IMG/VR virus record: IMGVR_UViG_3300020060_000157
Coordinates: 1 to 28,757 of that record
From: a virus
Length of the DNA: 28,757 nt
Reading direction: 5' to 3' (one strand)
Below the pieces are notes generated by a model that saw only the letters and a list, made by a program, of their open reading frames with translations, searched no databases and was not told the DNA's origin. Numbering within the stretch: the stretch's first letter is position 1; each line of letters opens with the position of its first letter. Shown in pieces: positions 1-28,757 of this stretch. The translations under genes were made by a program, and so were the position numbers.

Positions 1-42
1 TTAACCGGCAGGTTGTTGGTTCGAGTCCAACCGCGGGAGCCA
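1..42 (+). tRNA. 3' part of a tRNA gene, probably tRNA-Asn (5' part outside the window)
   Basis: Bases 15-19 (GTTGG) pair with 27-31 (CCAAC) around the T-loop TTCGAGT (20-26). The 3' acceptor strand is CGCGGGA (32-38), followed by discriminator G39 and an encoded CCA (40-42). Bases 5-9 fit the 3' side of the anticodon stem and 10-14 the variable loop. Bases 1-4 are then the end of the anticodon loop, giving anticodon NTT with its first base outside the window. G73 and the TTAA loop favour Asn (GTT) over Lys, but this is inferred. The 5' half should lie in host DNA to the left. Confidence 0.85.
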
Positions 43-52
43 CGCAGAAACC
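1..52. other. Left attachment junction (attL) of the prophage at the tRNA 3' end
   Basis: Phage-type genes begin directly after a tRNA 3' end, and a tyrosine integrase closes the other end of the window. This is the usual layout when such a phage integrates into the 3' part of a tRNA gene, with the tRNA restored at one junction. The exact core cannot be defined because the second copy, expected just beyond base 28757, is not included. No second copy of the T-arm/acceptor sequence was noticed inside the window. Confidence 0.65.
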
Positions 53-279
53 AGGCGCTGAACGGGAACGTTCAGCGCCTCTGCTATGCGCTGCACGTCC
101 TCTACGGTGATCTCGGTCTCGCAAGCGGAGATACGACGGTTGACCCACATCGAGGAGACGCCAAGCGCGAGCGCCAGCCTCCTGTTCGACAGCTGCTGCC
201 GTGCAAGCTCCGCGCGGATCTCCCGCGCGATGAGCTGAGACGGCGCGCCCCCCGAGGGCGCTACCACGGTGCTAGTCAT
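1..279 (-). CDS. Cro/C1-type HTH repressor, C-terminus encoded by tRNA antisense
   Basis: This 92-residue protein is the likely lysogeny repressor. Its helix-turn-helix lies at about residues 32-51 (core LALALGVSSMWVNRRIS), followed by helices typical of Cro/C1 domains and no separate oligomerisation domain. It diverges from a Cro-like gene that shares its recognition helix. Start ATG is at 279-277 with no convincing Shine-Dalgarno, so the mRNA may be leaderless or nearly so. Residues 80-92 (WLPRLDSNQQPAG) are antisense to the tRNA, and the TAA stop lies in the anticodon-loop sequence. The C-terminus is therefore set by the integration junction, and the product could differ before integration. 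The repressor role is inferred from domain and position. Confidence 0.8.
   Translation of the reverse strand: MTSTVVAPSGGAPSQLIAREIRAELARQQLSNRRLALALGVSSMWVNRRISACETEITVEDVQRIAEALNVPVQRLVSAWLPRLDSNQQPAG
53..80. other. Perfect 12-bp hairpin next to the attachment site
   Basis: AGGCGCTGAACG (53-64) is followed by GGAA (65-68) and the exact complement CGTTCAGCGCCT (69-80). It starts 10 bases after the tRNA CCA end and lies within the 3' coding part of the repressor gene. It has no T-run on either side. It could end tRNA transcription, bind integrase or protect the repressor mRNA 3' end; nothing here decides between these. Confidence 0.6.
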
Positions 280-378
280 AGCGACACTGTAACGGCGTCC
301 GGTTCACGGCGCTAGCGGCGATTTGTACTCAGAAAGATACTCCGAGTCGTTGCGCGGTTGACGTGGAACGCTAAGCGT
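271..378. promoter_or_regulatory. Candidate operator set in the repressor/cro divergent region
   Basis: Three inverted repeats share the half-site (C)GCTA/TAGC(G). They are GCTA-gtca-TAGC at 271-282, overlapping the repressor start codon; CGCTAGCG at 310-317; and ACGCT-a-AGCGT at 368-378. They lie in or next to the 113-base gap between the two divergent HTH genes, where operators for such proteins are expected. Another small palindrome, ACTC-c-GAGT (339-347), lies between them. Function is inferred. Confidence 0.4.
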
Positions 379-386
379 GCCAATCT
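358..386 (+). promoter_or_regulatory. Possible promoter for the Cro-like gene
   Basis: TTGACG at 358-363 is a near-consensus -35. A 17-base spacer leads to a weak -10-like CAATCT at 381-386, just upstream of the ATG at 393. The candidate operator at 368-378 lies in the spacer, so a bound repressor would block polymerase. The -10 is poor, so this is tentative. Confidence 0.3.
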
Positions 387-392
387 CCTGCC

Positions 393-3231: not shown

Positions 3232-4304
3232 CCGAAACGCAAACCGCCGAGGTGGGGGGTAACAGCGACACCCGCACCTATGAGCCTGGCATCGGGCGCC
3301 TGGCGGCCGCGCTCGCCGCGGTACAAGCCGAACTGCCCCGCCTGGGCAAGGCAGAGACGGGCAAGGTGTCGGGGAAGAACAAAGACGGCGAGTTCTTCAG
3401 CTATGAGTATTCGTACGCCGACCTTGCCTCGGTCAGCCGGGCGATCATGCCGTTGCTCGGCGAGCACGGGCTGGCCTTCACGGCATTCCCGACAGTCGTA
3501 GAGCGCAACCTCGTACTGCGGTACCACCTGCTGCACGAGTCCGGCGAGCAGCTCGCCGGCGAGTACCCGCTCACCGGCTCGACAGCCCAGCAGCTCGGCA
3601 GCTCGATCACCTACGCCCGCCGGTACTGCCTGTGTGCCGTGACCGGAATCGCCCCGGACGAGGATGACGACGCGGCCGCGGCTGATGGAGCGAAGGCCGC
3701 ACAGCAGGCCCAGCAGCAAGCCGAGGTGGACGCCACGACGGCCGCCGAGCAGGCGCAGTACGCCAAGGATCGCGCGCACGGCATCGACGCTGTGCGGGGC
3801 GCGTGGGCGGCGCAGTACGGCGAGTTCAATGGCGCCAAGGCCGAGGAGATGTACAAGACCTGGTCCAAGGGCGGGACCGTCGATGGGGCCACACCGGCCC
3901 AGCTGCGGGCGTTCGCCGCGATGATCCACGCCCTCCCGAAGGTCGACGCCGGTGGTGACCCGGCCGAGGTGACGCTGCTCCCGCCGGCGGACCAGACCGA
4001 GCAGCAGCCGCTCACCGGCGAGGGCCCCAAGATGACCAAGCTGCAGCAGGGCAAGGTGTTCGCGCTGATGTCCGACCTGTCGCTGACCGAGCGGCAGCAG
4101 CAGCTGCGGTTCCTCTCGGATGCCGTTGGCCGGCCTTTGAAGTCGCGCGGCGAGCTGACCAAGGATGACGCGAAGGTCGTGATCGACATCCTCGAGGAAG
4201 CTCTCCAGAACGTCTCCGGGCCCGCCCCGGTCGCCCAAAGCGCGGCCGGTGAGACCGGTGTGCCTGCGGGCCCGGAGACCCCCGACTCGAGCGGCGGTGA
4301 GTGA
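3228..4304 (+). CDS. erf: ERF-family single-strand annealing recombinase
   Basis: The ERF protein anneals complementary single strands during phage DNA recombination and circularisation. The 358-residue product starts at GTG 3228 behind GGGGGAA. The ERF domain covers about residues 22-150: a helix rich in Ala/Leu, the YSYADLASV segment, a central strand region, and the hallmark STAQQLGSSITYARRY at about 118-133, followed by an acidic run (DEDDD). A long Ala/Gln-rich helix follows, and a helical C-terminal module (about 265-325) that may bind partners. No exonuclease partner is obvious nearby, although the RusA resolvase downstream acts in the same pathway. Confidence 0.9.
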   Translation: MTETQTAEVGGNSDTRTYEPGIGRLAAALAAVQAELPRLGKAETGKVSGKNKDGEFFSYEYSYADLASVSRAIMPLLGEHGLAFTAFPTVVERNLVLRYHLLHESGEQLAGEYPLTGSTAQQLGSSITYARRYCLCAVTGIAPDEDDDAAAADGAKAAQQAQQQAEVDATTAAEQAQYAKDRAHGIDAVRGAWAAQYGEFNGAKAEEMYKTWSKGGTVDGATPAQLRAFAAMIHALPKVDAGGDPAEVTLLPPADQTEQQPLTGEGPKMTKLQQGKVFALMSDLSLTERQQQLRFLSDAVGRPLKSRGELTKDDAKVVIDILEEALQNVSGPAPVAQSAAGETGVPAGPETPDSSGGE

Positions 4305-5408: not shown

Positions 5409-5579
5409 ATGGGTGGTCCGGTCCCGGCCCGTGGCCGCAGTACCGGCAGGCGCCAGCAGCCTAGAGAGCTGGTCCCAGTCGCTCCGACCGCAGAGAAAGG
5501 GTGGCGCCGTGCACACCACGGCTGGCACGGCGCCACCGCACCCAAAGGCCAACCCCACAAGGAGAACCGTGTCCACTGA
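5409..5579 (+). CDS. Possible 56-residue ORF in an otherwise empty gap
   Basis: An ATG at 5409 opens a 56-codon frame ending at TGA 5577-5579, overlapping the next gene start by 11 bases. AGGAG lies about 12 bases upstream, a long spacing. Composition is basic with His/Trp-rich sequence (GWRRAHHGWHGATAPKG). Codon bias is weaker than in neighbours, and another frame through the gap is also open, so it may not be translated. Confidence 0.25.
   Translation: MGGPVPARGRSTGRRQQPRELVPVAPTAEKGWRRAHHGWHGATAPKGQPHKENRVH
5500..5537 (+). other. Perfect 13-bp hairpin in the 5377-5568 gap
   Basis: GGTGGCGCCGTGC (5500-5512) is followed by a 12-base loop and its exact complement (5525-5537). It lies 31 bases before the GTG of the next gene, with no T-run after it. 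A Rho-independent terminator is possible in a high-GC host, but a structured leader or small RNA fits as well. The rest of the 192-base gap holds only the doubtful ORF at 5409. Confidence 0.5.
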
Positions 5580-5919
5580 AGTGAAGCTCGCCGGGCGGCT
5601 GCCCGCATCCCCCGAGAGCAACGGCATGCACTCGGTGCTCGCCGACCTGCTCCAGACCCCGAAGACACAGCGCCTGTACGTCGTCTGGGGCGACGTCCTC
5701 GAGATCAAACGGAACCTCGACACCGGCGACGAGATCCCGACGCTGCGGGTGCTGAAGATCGAGCCACTCGGCGAGGTCGACGAGGTGTCGCAGGCGATCC
5801 GCGAAGAGGTCATGCGGAAGGCCGAGGACCGGTTGGGGCACACGCCGCTGCCGTTCGACCAGCACGACCCGGACGGCGTGACCGTGCTGCCCGGCACAGA
5901 CGAGGAAGGCGACGACTGA
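5569..5919 (+). CDS. Hypothetical phage early protein
   Basis: A 116-residue protein from GTG 5569, preceded by AAGGAG (5559-5564). The frame is open further upstream, but no better start signal is seen. It has strand-helix alternation with a central QRLYVVWGDVLEIK segment and an acidic C-terminus. Its stop overlaps the next start. I do not recognise the family. Confidence 0.7.
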   Translation: MSTEVKLAGRLPASPESNGMHSVLADLLQTPKTQRLYVVWGDVLEIKRNLDTGDEIPTLRVLKIEPLGEVDEVSQAIREEVMRKAEDRLGHTPLPFDQHDPDGVTVLPGTDEEGDD

Positions 5920-6506
5920 TGGCCGAGTCCACCGAGCTCACAGCGAACGTGCCGGTCACCGTCAGCCTCGACATCAACGACCTGGTCAAGGCGTACGTCG
6001 GTGAGATCCCGACCTACACCGGCGACCCCGACGACGAGATGGAGCCACCGCCCCCGCTGTACGGCGAGATCATCGGCGCCGCAGCGCACATCGTGGCCCA
6101 GAGCGTCATCCGCGACGCCACCCGGTATCAGGGCCTGAAGAACCGCGTCGACGAGCAGATCGACGCAGCCCTGAACGCGGGGATCGTCGCCGAGCTCGAG
6201 AAGCCGTTCAAGCCAGTCGACTCGTACGGCCAGGTCGACCGGCACGCGGACCCGACGACCCTGCGGGAGCAGATCGGGAAGCACGCCACCGCGTGGATCG
6301 CGAAGGGGATGAAGGGCTCGACGAACGGCTATTCCAGCGACAACGGCGCCCTGTACCAGTACATCAACAAGGAACTCGACCAGCTGATCAAGACCGATCT
6401 GAAGGCGGTCGCGGACTCCGCCCGGGCCGCGGTCACCCAGAAGATCCAGAAGGAAGCGGCCACGGTCATCGCGGACATCATCACGAAGACCGCGGGGGTG
6501 AAGTGA
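5919..6506 (+). CDS. Hypothetical helical phage protein
   Basis: A 195-residue protein starting with a TGATG overlap. Apart from a strand-like start (VPVTVSLDIN) and a Pro-rich segment near residue 45, it is predicted helical. The C-terminal 60 residues could form a coiled coil (DLKAVADSARAAVTQKIQK). Similar helical proteins are common in actinophage early regions. Function unknown. Confidence 0.75.
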   Translation: MAESTELTANVPVTVSLDINDLVKAYVGEIPTYTGDPDDEMEPPPPLYGEIIGAAAHIVAQSVIRDATRYQGLKNRVDEQIDAALNAGIVAELEKPFKPVDSYGQVDRHADPTTLREQIGKHATAWIAKGMKGSTNGYSSDNGALYQYINKELDQLIKTDLKAVADSARAAVTQKIQKEAATVIADIITKTAGVK

Positions 6507-24597: not shown

Positions 24598-24897
24598 ATG
24601 AACGACCTGCCAGCGATCATCGGTGCTGTCGCGCTGTTGATCGGTGGCGTCTTCACGGGTCTGATCGGGCTCGACCAGAAGCGGAAGCGGGTCGATGCCG
24701 AGACACTCGACGAGCTCGCCGACTACCACCGTTGGCATCCTCGGGTCCGGCGGGCCCTGGTGTTGCTCCGGGCAACGGTCGCCGACAGCCCGCAGGCGGA
24801 AGAGCCGGACGGGATCGACGATCTGATTCAATGGCCGCCGCCGAAGCCGAAGCACTCAAGACGTGGCGACGAGGTGACCGCTGATGACGCGGGATAG
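24598..24897 (+). CDS. Small single-pass membrane protein
   Basis: A 99-residue protein with one hydrophobic segment at residues 5-25 ([19 protein letters not shown]), then a basic stretch and a helical acidic tail. It lies between tail and lysis genes, where actinophages often have one-pass membrane proteins that may help lysis. The Shine-Dalgarno (GGAG) is rather far upstream. Role not proven. Confidence 0.7.
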
Positions 24898-25573
24898 CTG
24901 GATCTTCCGGGGTGTCGCGGTGGGCGCGTTCGTGGTGGCCGCGGCGTCGCTGGTCATCACGACCCTGCAGAAGCAGGACGCGCAGACCGGCGAGGACGTC
25001 GCGCAGTCCGAGCTCGTGTCGCTGGCGCAGGCGAACCAGGCGGCCTGCCAGCGTTTCGGGACTGTCGAGGCTGAGAAGGTGCTCGGTGCGGGGAAGTGTC
25101 AGCAGGCGAAAGAGATCGTGGAACGGCCGCCGGCCGAGAAGGGGGACCCGGGTGCTACTGGTGCTCGTGGCCCGCAGGGCGTCCAGGGCGCGGCGGGTCC
25201 GCAAGGCCCACGCGGCCCGCAGGGCACAGCGGGCGCGCAGCCGGGCTGCCTGATCCTCGTCAGCAAGTGCCAGGGACCCACGGGCCCGGCAGGACTCCGA
25301 GGGCTCACAGGGCCGTCTGGGGCCGCGGGCGACGCCGGGCCCGCGGGACCGTCCGGTCCGGCGGGTGAGGCCGGCCCAAAAGGCGAGCAGGGTTCCCAGG
25401 GAGCACAGGGGAACCAGGGCGACCAGGGGCCGGCCGGACCGCAGGGACCAGCTGGGCCCGCTGGGCCTTCCTGCGAGGCGGGTAGCACCTTGCAGAAGCT
25501 GCACGTCATGACCACCGAGGTCCCAACCGGCACGTGGATCCTCGCGTGCGTCCTCGACGACCAGAACCCCTGA
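24884..25573 (+). CDS. Membrane-anchored collagen-like protein
   Basis: A 229-residue protein with an N-terminal membrane anchor (about residues 8-28) and a helical neck. It has two collagen-like Gly-X-Y blocks: about 11 triplets, a break with two Cys (CLILVSKC), then about 22 triplets, and a Cys-led C-terminal cap of about 35 residues. It probably forms a trimeric rod outside the membrane. Similar anchored collagen-like proteins lie near lysis genes in some actinophages, but their role is unknown. It overlaps the preceding gene by 14 bases. Confidence 0.85.
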
Positions 25574-26997: not shown

Positions 26998-27336
26998 CTA
27001 CTGTGCCGAGGCGATCGCCTGCCGGATCCGCAGCGCCGCCGCCTCGCCCTGTGCGTTCTTCACCTTGTACGCATGGACCGTCCCGGCGGTCGTCACGACC
27101 AGCGACCCGGGCGACCCCAACAGCCCCTTCTTCCACGCGACGTTCTGCACGTTGCGCAGCGGCACGCTCATGTCCGGCTCGGATCCAGCGAGTGCCGGCG
27201 CGATCATCAGCCGCCGATCAGTCAGCACCATCGCCGACGCAGCCAGGTTCGCCGACAGCACGACCGTCTCCCCAGGCATCACCTGACCCTCCAGGTTCTC
27301 CCTGGCCTTCCGGGTGATGCGGTCATTCAGGCCCAT
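26998..27336 (-). CDS. PH-like domain protein, probable lysogen cargo
   Basis: A 112-residue protein starting at ATG 27336-27334, with AGGGGGAA (minus strand) just upstream. A longer frame to 27399 lacks such a signal. Residues 20-105 resemble a bacterial PH-like fold: strands in GETVVLSANLAASAMVLTDR, MSVPLRNVQNVAWKKGLLG and SLVVTTAGTVHAYKV, then a C-terminal helix. Such domains are often membrane-associated or regulatory; no partner is known here. It runs against the late genes and is shielded by the terminator, as expected for a gene expressed in the lysogen. Confidence 0.75.
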   Translation of the reverse strand: MGLNDRITRKARENLEGQVMPGETVVLSANLAASAMVLTDRRLMIAPALAGSEPDMSVPLRNVQNVAWKKGLLGSPGSLVVTTAGTVHAYKVKNAQGEAAALRIRQAIASAQ

Positions 27337-27360
27337 GGTTCTTCCCCCTGCAAAGTGGTT

Positions 27361-27392
27361 GGAGCGTCGAATGCTGGCGCGTCCGACGCTCC
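27361..27392 (-). other. 9-bp hairpin between the two minus-strand genes
   Basis: GGAGCGTCG (27361-27369) pairs with CGACGCTCC (27384-27392) around a 14-base loop. It lies in the gap between the 79-residue gene and the PH-like gene. It could lower read-through from one to the other or stabilise mRNA. Confidence 0.45.
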
Positions 27393-27403
27393 CGGTCAAT
27401 GGT

Positions 27404-27643
27404 TCACTCGTCGGCCCTCGGGTCGTCGTGGCGTTCCCACGCGGTGCCCTCGGCGTTCAGCATCGGCCAGCCGTGTTCGTCGGTCGCGATCGGCCGCATG
27501 TCCGGCGGATCGGCCGGCGGATAGATCACCCGCCGGATCGCGAGCAGTGTCGCCTCGCACGAGGCAACACCGCGGTGTTGGATGATGTGCCCGATCTCGG
27601 CGACCTGCATTGCCGGGTCGGGGCTGGATAGGGTGTCGTTCAC
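27404..27643 (-). CDS. Hypothetical 79-residue protein
   Basis: A 79-residue protein from GTG 27643-27641 with a strong AGGAGGT six bases upstream on the minus strand. It is mixed helical with an acidic end (AWERHDDPRADE). No family is recognised. It heads a two-gene minus-strand unit that ends at the bidirectional terminator and is probably expressed in the lysogen. Confidence 0.7.
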   Translation of the reverse strand: MNDTLSSPDPAMQVAEIGHIIQHRGVASCEATLLAIRRVIYPPADPPDMRPIATDEHGWPMLNAEGTAWERHDDPRADE

Positions 27644-27896
27644 GGTCGGACCTCCTGTGTCCGGTCGAGGCCCCGGCCAGCGTTCCAGCGCTGCGTCCGG
27701 GGCCGCCTACTACCTGCAGTCGATGCGGCATTCCCTGCCGCCGGCACCTCCTTCCGGTCGAATAACCTGCCGGTTATCCGATCCGAACCCGGGCCGGACT
27801 TGAGCGTGCGGCATAACGGCCATGTCACGCGCCGTAACGTATTTACGTCAATCCGCGATGGTGGGGGAAACCGATTACCGCCGCCCCGGAGAGACG
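27644..27896. promoter_or_regulatory. Divergent region upstream of integrase with inverted repeats
   Basis: This 253-base region between the minus-strand unit and the integrase start holds two inverted repeats: ATAACC-tgcc-GGTTAT (27762-27777) and ACGTA-tt-TACGT (27837-27848). They may bind a regulator or the recombination proteins. TTGAGC (27800-27805) is -35-like, but no good -10 follows. No excisionase gene was found here. On the minus strand an unused AAGGAGGT (27753-27746) has no start codon at a normal distance. Confidence 0.4.
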
Positions 27897-28757
27897 ATGT
27901 GGACAGCCGAAACCAGACACTTCACCAAGTACCTGCAGTCCGCCGGCAGGTCCCCGCACACCATCCGCCTGCGCCTCCACTACGTGGGGCGCCTATCCCA
28001 AGCCGTCGACAGCCCGGACCCGTGGACCGTGGGCGTCGACCAGCTCGTCGACTTCCTCAGCTGCCCGACCTGGAAGCCCGAGACCCGCAAGTCCGCCAGG
28101 GCCAGCGTCTGCGCGTTCTACTCGTGGGGCGTGGACACCGACCGGATCGAGGAACACCGCAACCCGGCGAGGCGCCTGCCACATGTCACCGCGCCGAGGG
28201 CTCTACCCCGGCCGGCGCCGTCGATGGTGTTCCGGTGCGCCCTGTTGAGCGCGAACGACCGGGACCGGCTGTTCCTGCTGCTGGCCGGGTACGCCGGGCT
28301 ACGCCGGGCAGAGATCGCAGCCGTCCACCCCCGCGACATCGACCACGAGCGCCAGGCCCTGCGGGTGCATGGGAAGGGCGGCAAGGAGCGCGTCGTGCCG
28401 CTGCACCCGGTGCTCTATGCCGAGCTGGGCTATGAGCTCGAGCGTCGAGTGGCAGGCGGGTTCGGCAGCGGGTGGCGCTTCCACTCGTTGATCGCGCCGG
28501 ACAGCCACTTGTTCCCCGGGCGGAACGGGCACGTCGGGCCGGATGTCCCGGGCAAGGCGTTGGCGCGGCTGCTGCTCGGCGACTGGACGGGGCACACGCT
28601 GAGGCACCGGTTCGCGTCTGCGGCGTACGCGGTCGACCGCGATCTACGGGCTGTGCAGGAGCTGCTCGGCCACTCGAAGCCTGAGACGACCGCCCGGTAT
28701 GTCGCGACTCCGGACGGGGCTCTGCGTGCCGCTGTCGCGGGGGTGACCGCGGCGTGA
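27897..28757 (+). CDS. int: Tyrosine integrase
   Basis: A 286-residue site-specific recombinase that should integrate the phage at the tRNA. ATG 27897 is chosen because GGAG stands five bases upstream; in-frame ATG at 27822 or 27858 would add 25 or 13 residues. The N-terminal SAM-like core-binding domain spans about 1-95. The catalytic domain has R136 (YAGLRRAEI), K163 (GKGGKERVVPL), H233 and R236 (GHTLRHRFA), H259 (LLGHSKPE) and nucleophile Y268 (TTARYVA), a full set. It reads towards the right attachment site just beyond the window. The last residues are VAGVTAA; a terminal Ala-Ala can act as a ClpXP degron. Confidence 0.93.
   Translation: MWTAETRHFTKYLQSAGRSPHTIRLRLHYVGRLSQAVDSPDPWTVGVDQLVDFLSCPTWKPETRKSARASVCAFYSWGVDTDRIEEHRNPARRLPHVTAPRALPRPAPSMVFRCALLSANDRDRLFLLLAGYAGLRRAEIAAVHPRDIDHERQALRVHGKGGKERVVPLHPVLYAELGYELERRVAGGFGSGWRFHSLIAPDSHLFPGRNGHVGPDVPGKALARLLLGDWTGHTLRHRFASAAYAVDRDLRAVQELLGHSKPETTARYVATPDGALRAAVAGVTAA

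Follow-up and report, generated by a model that had tools for sequence, protein, structure and literature searches.

In mycobacteriophage BPs, integration shortens the repressor gp33 from 136 to 103 amino acid residues, and the long form was shown to be degraded, the short form to be stable and active (PMC4557955). Integration-dependent immunity was also described for Gordonia phages (PMC4929511, PMC5559632) and for the prophages of Bifidobacterium (PMC6109161) and M. abscessus (PMC8092301, PMC9934374). In the published layout, the integrase gene is either immediately downstream of the repressor gene or 3-5 genes away from it, and both genes are oriented in the same direction (PMC8092301).

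The DNA analyzed in this study, referred to as the window, is an IMG/VR virus record of 28,757 nt, whose two ends are the ends of two genes: the stop codon of a repressor gene at base 1 and that of an integrase gene at base 28757. The repressor matched HTH_3 at 1.1e-6, and its PHROG annotation was transcriptional repressor. Its C-terminus was WLPRLDSNQQPAG followed by the stop codon. Bases 1-42, TTAACCGGCAGGTTGTTGGTTCGAGTCCAACCGCGGGAGCCA, are the 3' part of tRNA-Asn(GTT), which begins with the second and third anticodon bases and ends with CCA. These 42 nt equal 13 residues and a stop codon; thus, residues 80-92 of the repressor and its stop codon are antisense tRNA, as an earlier note on this DNA had claimed. 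The stop codon TAA is the complement of the two anticodon bases and the next base. ARAGORN detected no tRNA in the 28,757-nt window, because the 5' half of tRNA-Asn falls outside it, and called tRNA-Asn(gtt) at the homologous Kribbella locus. Comparison of codons 1-79 with those of the homolog of K. catacumbae revealed 21 synonymous and 16 non-synonymous changes, and the differences at the three codon positions numbered 13, 8, and 30, respectively. Thus, the repressor frame is coding and under selection.

Similar to BPs, a divergent gene encoding a Cro-like HTH protein was adjacent to the repressor gene of the window (Table 1). The two genes were 71% identical at the DNA level over 78 bases. 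A promoter scan of the control region between both HTH genes gave no sigma-70-type match.

The 13-nt core repeat AACCTGCCGGTTA occurred twice in the window and in none of 100 shuffles. One copy was found on the minus strand inside the repressor gene and the other on the plus strand upstream of the integrase gene. Read in the repressor's frame, the latter gave CCT GCC GGT TAT CCG ATC CGA ACC CGG GCC GGA CTT GAG CGT GCG GCA TAA, which translates as PAG-YPIRTRAGLERAA-stop. Only 5 nt separated this stop codon from the ATG of the integrase gene. The tail ended with ERAA, a degradation tag as judged by sequence only. The deciding position was base 1 of the window, where the host provides TAA and the phage TAT (Tyr). 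Joined in silico, the repressor of the free phage should be 105 amino acid residues long with an ssrA-like tail ending with -AA. At the sequence level, integration shortens the repressor from 105 to 92 residues, by which 13 tail residues are lost. The attP core near the 3' end of the repressor ORF, the stop codon made at the junction and the -AA tag by sequence are all features of the BPs type.

These results bear directly on what the earlier note had proposed. Its placement of the attachment site inside the repressor gene agreed with the core found in the ORF and the half-site at 27764-27776, and the different C-terminus that it expected for the phage form was recovered as TAT for TAA followed by YPIRTRAGLERAA. 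The note had placed this C-terminus beyond the window, which was wrong, as positions 27764-27816 contain the phage-side half-site. It had also suggested rebuilding attP and translating the repressor from it; done in silico, this led to loss of the stop codon and gain of the -AA tail. Moreover, the core did not extend past base 1: the shared stretch covered bases 2-14, and base 1 differed.

Table 1. Features at the two ends of the 28,757-nt window.
Feature	Position	Strand	Basis or remark
Repressor gene, prophage form, 92 aa	1-279	(-)	HTH_3; PHROG transcriptional repressor; K. catacumbae homolog
tRNA-Asn(GTT) 3' part, tRNA-side attachment junction (attL)	1-42	(+)	Sequence; ARAGORN call at homologous locus
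13-nt stretch in common with 27764-27776	2-14	(-)	Crossover in or beside this stretch
Control region, repressor to Cro-like gene	280-392		Inferred from divergent gene pair
Cro-like HTH gene, 76 aa	393-623	(+)	Divergent from and related to repressor
Part of 79-aa gene and stem-loop, which follow integrase in K. catacumbae	27510-27709	(-)	82% DNA identity, plus/minus
54 bp at inversion junction	27710-27763		No counterpart in K. catacumbae
Integrase-side half of attachment core	27764-27776	(+)	13-nt repeat match
3' remnant of phage-form repressor, YPIRTRAGLERAA-stop, in repressor's frame	27775-27816	(+)	Sequence
Tyrosine integrase, 311 aa, C-terminus -AA	27822-28757	(+)	5 nt 3' of repressor remnant

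Among 38 Kribbellaceae genomes, the system was found in K. catacumbae only. The genome of K. catacumbae DSM 19601 contains an integrated prophage (NZ_AQUZ01000004.1, about 181145-205026) whose early genes are collinear with those of the window. The repressor of this prophage was 80% identical to that of the window and ended with ...WLPRMDSNHQPAG-stop inside a tRNA-Asn(gtt), which was intact according to ARAGORN. At the other end of the prophage, AACCTGCCGGT was followed by an in-frame NAGRLAMVA-stop and then by the integrase gene. The two prophage ends had only AACCTGCCGGT in common, and the sequence adjoining it at the other end is probably the original 3' end of the tRNA. The phage-form repressor of K. 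catacumbae is predicted to end with ...HQPAGNAGRLAMVA; its rebuilt tail ends with MVA, not AA. Similar to the window, this prophage has the stop codon of the repressor gene in tRNA-Asn, collinear early genes, a related integrase and the 79-aa gene. Different from the window, its integrase gene is codirectional with the repressor gene, and its tail is NAGRLAMVA. The intact tRNA-Asn of K. catacumbae and the tRNA-Asn 3' half of the window also match the BPs type, in which attB is commonly, though not always, a tRNA 3' end that is restored by a phage copy. In addition, paired changes between phage and host (TTGG/CCAA, ATGG/CCAT, and CTGG/CCAG) were observed in the T-stem of the tRNA copy at window bases 1-42 and at the attachment ends of K. 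catacumbae (L198 and L199). Given these paired changes, the ability to fold appears to be maintained in the half tRNAs that phages carry.

It is very likely that a BPs-type switch of integration-dependent immunity is encoded in the window, the host of the prophage being a Kribbella-like actinobacterium. Before integration, the reading frame of the repressor would continue through the attachment core into YPIRTRAGLERAA, with the integrase gene 5 nt further on. The -AA tail would send the 105-aa repressor to ClpXP-type proteolysis, and lysogeny would not be held. The integrase would recombine this core and the 3' half of the host tRNA-Asn(GTT), by which TAA would replace the phage TAT, and the tRNA would stay intact through the 3' end copy that the phage carries, as seen in K. 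catacumbae. Without its tail, the 92-aa repressor would be stable and active, and immunity would be established after integration only. That the long form is degraded and the short form stable and active is proposed by analogy with BPs (PMC4557955). The proposed switch is supported by the in-frame core repeat 5' of the integrase gene, the Tyr codon in place of the stop codon and the -AA end, as well as by both ends of the K. catacumbae prophage, the HTH repressor with its divergent Cro-like gene and an integrase of the BPs type that also ends with -AA. Further support comes from the 13 phage forms described below and from published systems whose layout and tags agree with those found here (PMC4557955, PMC8092301, PMC4929511). 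To the switch that the earlier note had suggested, our results add a degron-like tail that is removed on integration in the window, K. catacumbae and 11 further relatives; the part concerning stability and immunity is taken over from BPs.

By its sequence, the system of the window appears to belong to integration-dependent immunity, whose mechanism is already known. Similar to BPs, attP is inside the repressor gene, a C-terminal tail with an ssrA-like tag is lost on integration, the tyrosine integrase has a C-terminal signal and the Cro-like gene is divergent. Different from BPs, the tail is 13 rather than 33 residues long, the attachment site is in tRNA-Asn and the integrase block is inverted in the record. 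The M. abscessus prophages (PMC8092301) also have a stop codon that arises at the attL junction, tRNA sites and viral repressor tails and integrases that often end with -AA. Their integrase genes, however, are in the same direction as the repressor genes, and their attachment sites are in other tRNA genes or intergenic. Gordonia phage Obliviate (PMC4929511) likewise has attP within the repressor gene, a tRNA site and a tail ending with -DAA, but the site is in tRNA-Thr, and the repressor and integrase genes are both leftward. For the Bifidobacterium prophages Bb423phi2 and 689b-1 (PMC6109161), the viral repressor was also rebuilt in silico and carried a short tail of 18 residues that was ssrA-like. 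Different from the window, the site of these prophages is in tRNA-Met, and their integrase and repressor genes are at opposite ends in standard orientation.

Viral contigs were scanned for an antisense T-arm, which yielded 61 loci. At 26 of them, an HTH-type ORF ended with LPRLDSNQQP plus two residues, and HTH_3 was matched by 24 of the 27 proteins compared. The identities between these 26 HTH proteins and the window repressor were 26-42% with the tail included; thus, the proteins are poorly alike outside their tRNA-encoded tail. Nine of the 26 were found in attP form, with tails of 9-41 residues, and two further prophages (G004 and G011) had both ends visible. Together with the window and K. 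catacumbae, these gave 13 phage forms, all of which had lost the stop codon (13/13). Seven of the 13 tails ended with AA, compared with 23 of 615 control ORFs (3.7%; p = 1.4e-7), a figure that is rough because the control ORFs (at least 120 codons, from the same kind of sequence) were chosen mechanically. At two Gardnerella loci (L146 and L149, around 5572-6001), an HTH gene also ended in antisense tRNA-like sequence (...LFVAGHGFEPWTSGL); its layout was different, with a divergent integrase gene adjacent to it at the same end.

The attachment site might also be in a tRNA gene that merely happens to be under the 3' end of the repressor gene, in which case both forms of the repressor would work alike and the tail would have no role. 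The 3' ends of tRNA genes are often used by tyrosine integrases, and one relative, G013 (L047, 1-13555), encodes the same repressor C-terminus in both forms. Its core is at 3982-4010 (-), and TAA is kept in its apparent attP form because the core runs past the stop codon. Thus, attachment inside a repressor gene alone is no proof of a switch, and G013 may represent a natural control without one. Such a passive overlap is nevertheless improbable for the window, whose open tail continues the repressor's frame and is coupled to the integrase gene. With G013 included, the stop codon was lost in 13 of 14 phage forms, and AA ended 7 of 13 tails vs. the 3.7% expected. The immunity switch is the reading preferred here.

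The integrase of the window had its nearest relatives in G002 and K. catacumbae, and no close relative was found when viral contigs were searched. Relatives whose integrase is of this type have codirectional repressor and integrase genes. Compared with K. catacumbae, the 79-aa gene and the stem-loop of the window matched plus/minus, and the integrase gene matched plus/plus. Thus, the block consisting of the half-site, the repressor remnant and the integrase gene is inverted in place. Within this block, the integrase gene reads outward, and the repressor remnant directly precedes it in the same direction, an order that is usual and also seen in the relatives in attP form; the spacing of 5 nt also fits a phage form with the integrase gene 3' of the repressor gene. 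The earlier note had regarded the convergent integrase and repressor genes as a new variant. This was not supported: the order of remnant and integrase is standard, the closest prophage is codirectional and only this record is inverted. Three other records (G009, G016, and G025) with a convergent arrangement were also considered. Their integrases had no BLAST match at 1e-8 to that of the window, and no integrase-side core was visible; these integrases are of another type, and a convergent class is unsupported. In the record, the half-sites are inverted relative to each other; thus, their recombination would lead to inversion of the prophage, not to excision.

The block may have been inverted naturally by the integrase, acting at the right attachment site and at a secondary site near the integrase terminator. 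One breakpoint falls within the crossover stretch or next to it, a hint that the integrase was the cause, and the other coincides with the stem-loop found downstream of the K. catacumbae integrase gene; moreover, the remnant is still open, and hence the event looks recent. However, the 54 bp left of the half-site, which lie between the stem-loop and the inverted block at the expected place of the old tRNA end, are little like a core site. As a decayed tRNA end, these 54 bp gave scattered matches only and were rejected, and the short DNA matches that other Kribbella genomes gave near the junction appeared to be unrelated. The junction may also be a chimera from DNA amplification or assembly, the true prophage being codirectional like the relatives with BPs-type integrases, and the arrangement is known from a single record. 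A chimeric join, however, would meet the short crossover stretch by chance only and would leave the 54 bp unaccounted for.

It is rather unlikely that the integrase gene and the remnant came from another phage that had inserted in reverse orientation beside this prophage, which would have lost its own integrase gene. M. abscessus is known to have tandem prophages with this kind of immunity that were generated by integrase (PMC9934374), and the integrase is less conserved than the repressor (53% vs. 80% identity to K. catacumbae). The record, however, has one integrase gene only, the remnant is in the frame of the window repressor and the adjoining terminator is that found in K. catacumbae downstream of this type of integrase gene. 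Finally, it is highly improbable that the switch has a second layer in which the integrase inverts the block with its own gene and the degron remnant, acting at the attachment core and at a secondary site next to its terminator. If true, neither the unstable repressor nor the repressor-integrase operon could be restored by normal excision from the inverted state, and lysogeny would be locked until the block flips back.

Our results add a tRNA-Asn site and a Kribbella-like host to a lysogeny switch that is proven but has been little sampled. The same solution is found in at least 26 other HTH proteins, which have a common tRNA-encoded end peptide and a stop codon from the anticodon loop. Our survey also provides a rule for finding such switches, namely an HTH ORF that ends in antisense tRNA together with an in-frame remnant beside an integrase gene, and K. 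catacumbae is a cultured strain that carries the system.

Beside the integrase gene of the window are also two small leftward genes without Pfam match, at 26998-27399 (-) and 27404-27643 (-), of which the 79-aa gene is conserved beside the integrase gene in K. catacumbae. A collagen-like repeat protein (Pfam Collagen, 1.1e-16) is encoded at 24884-25573, between the tail and lysis genes.
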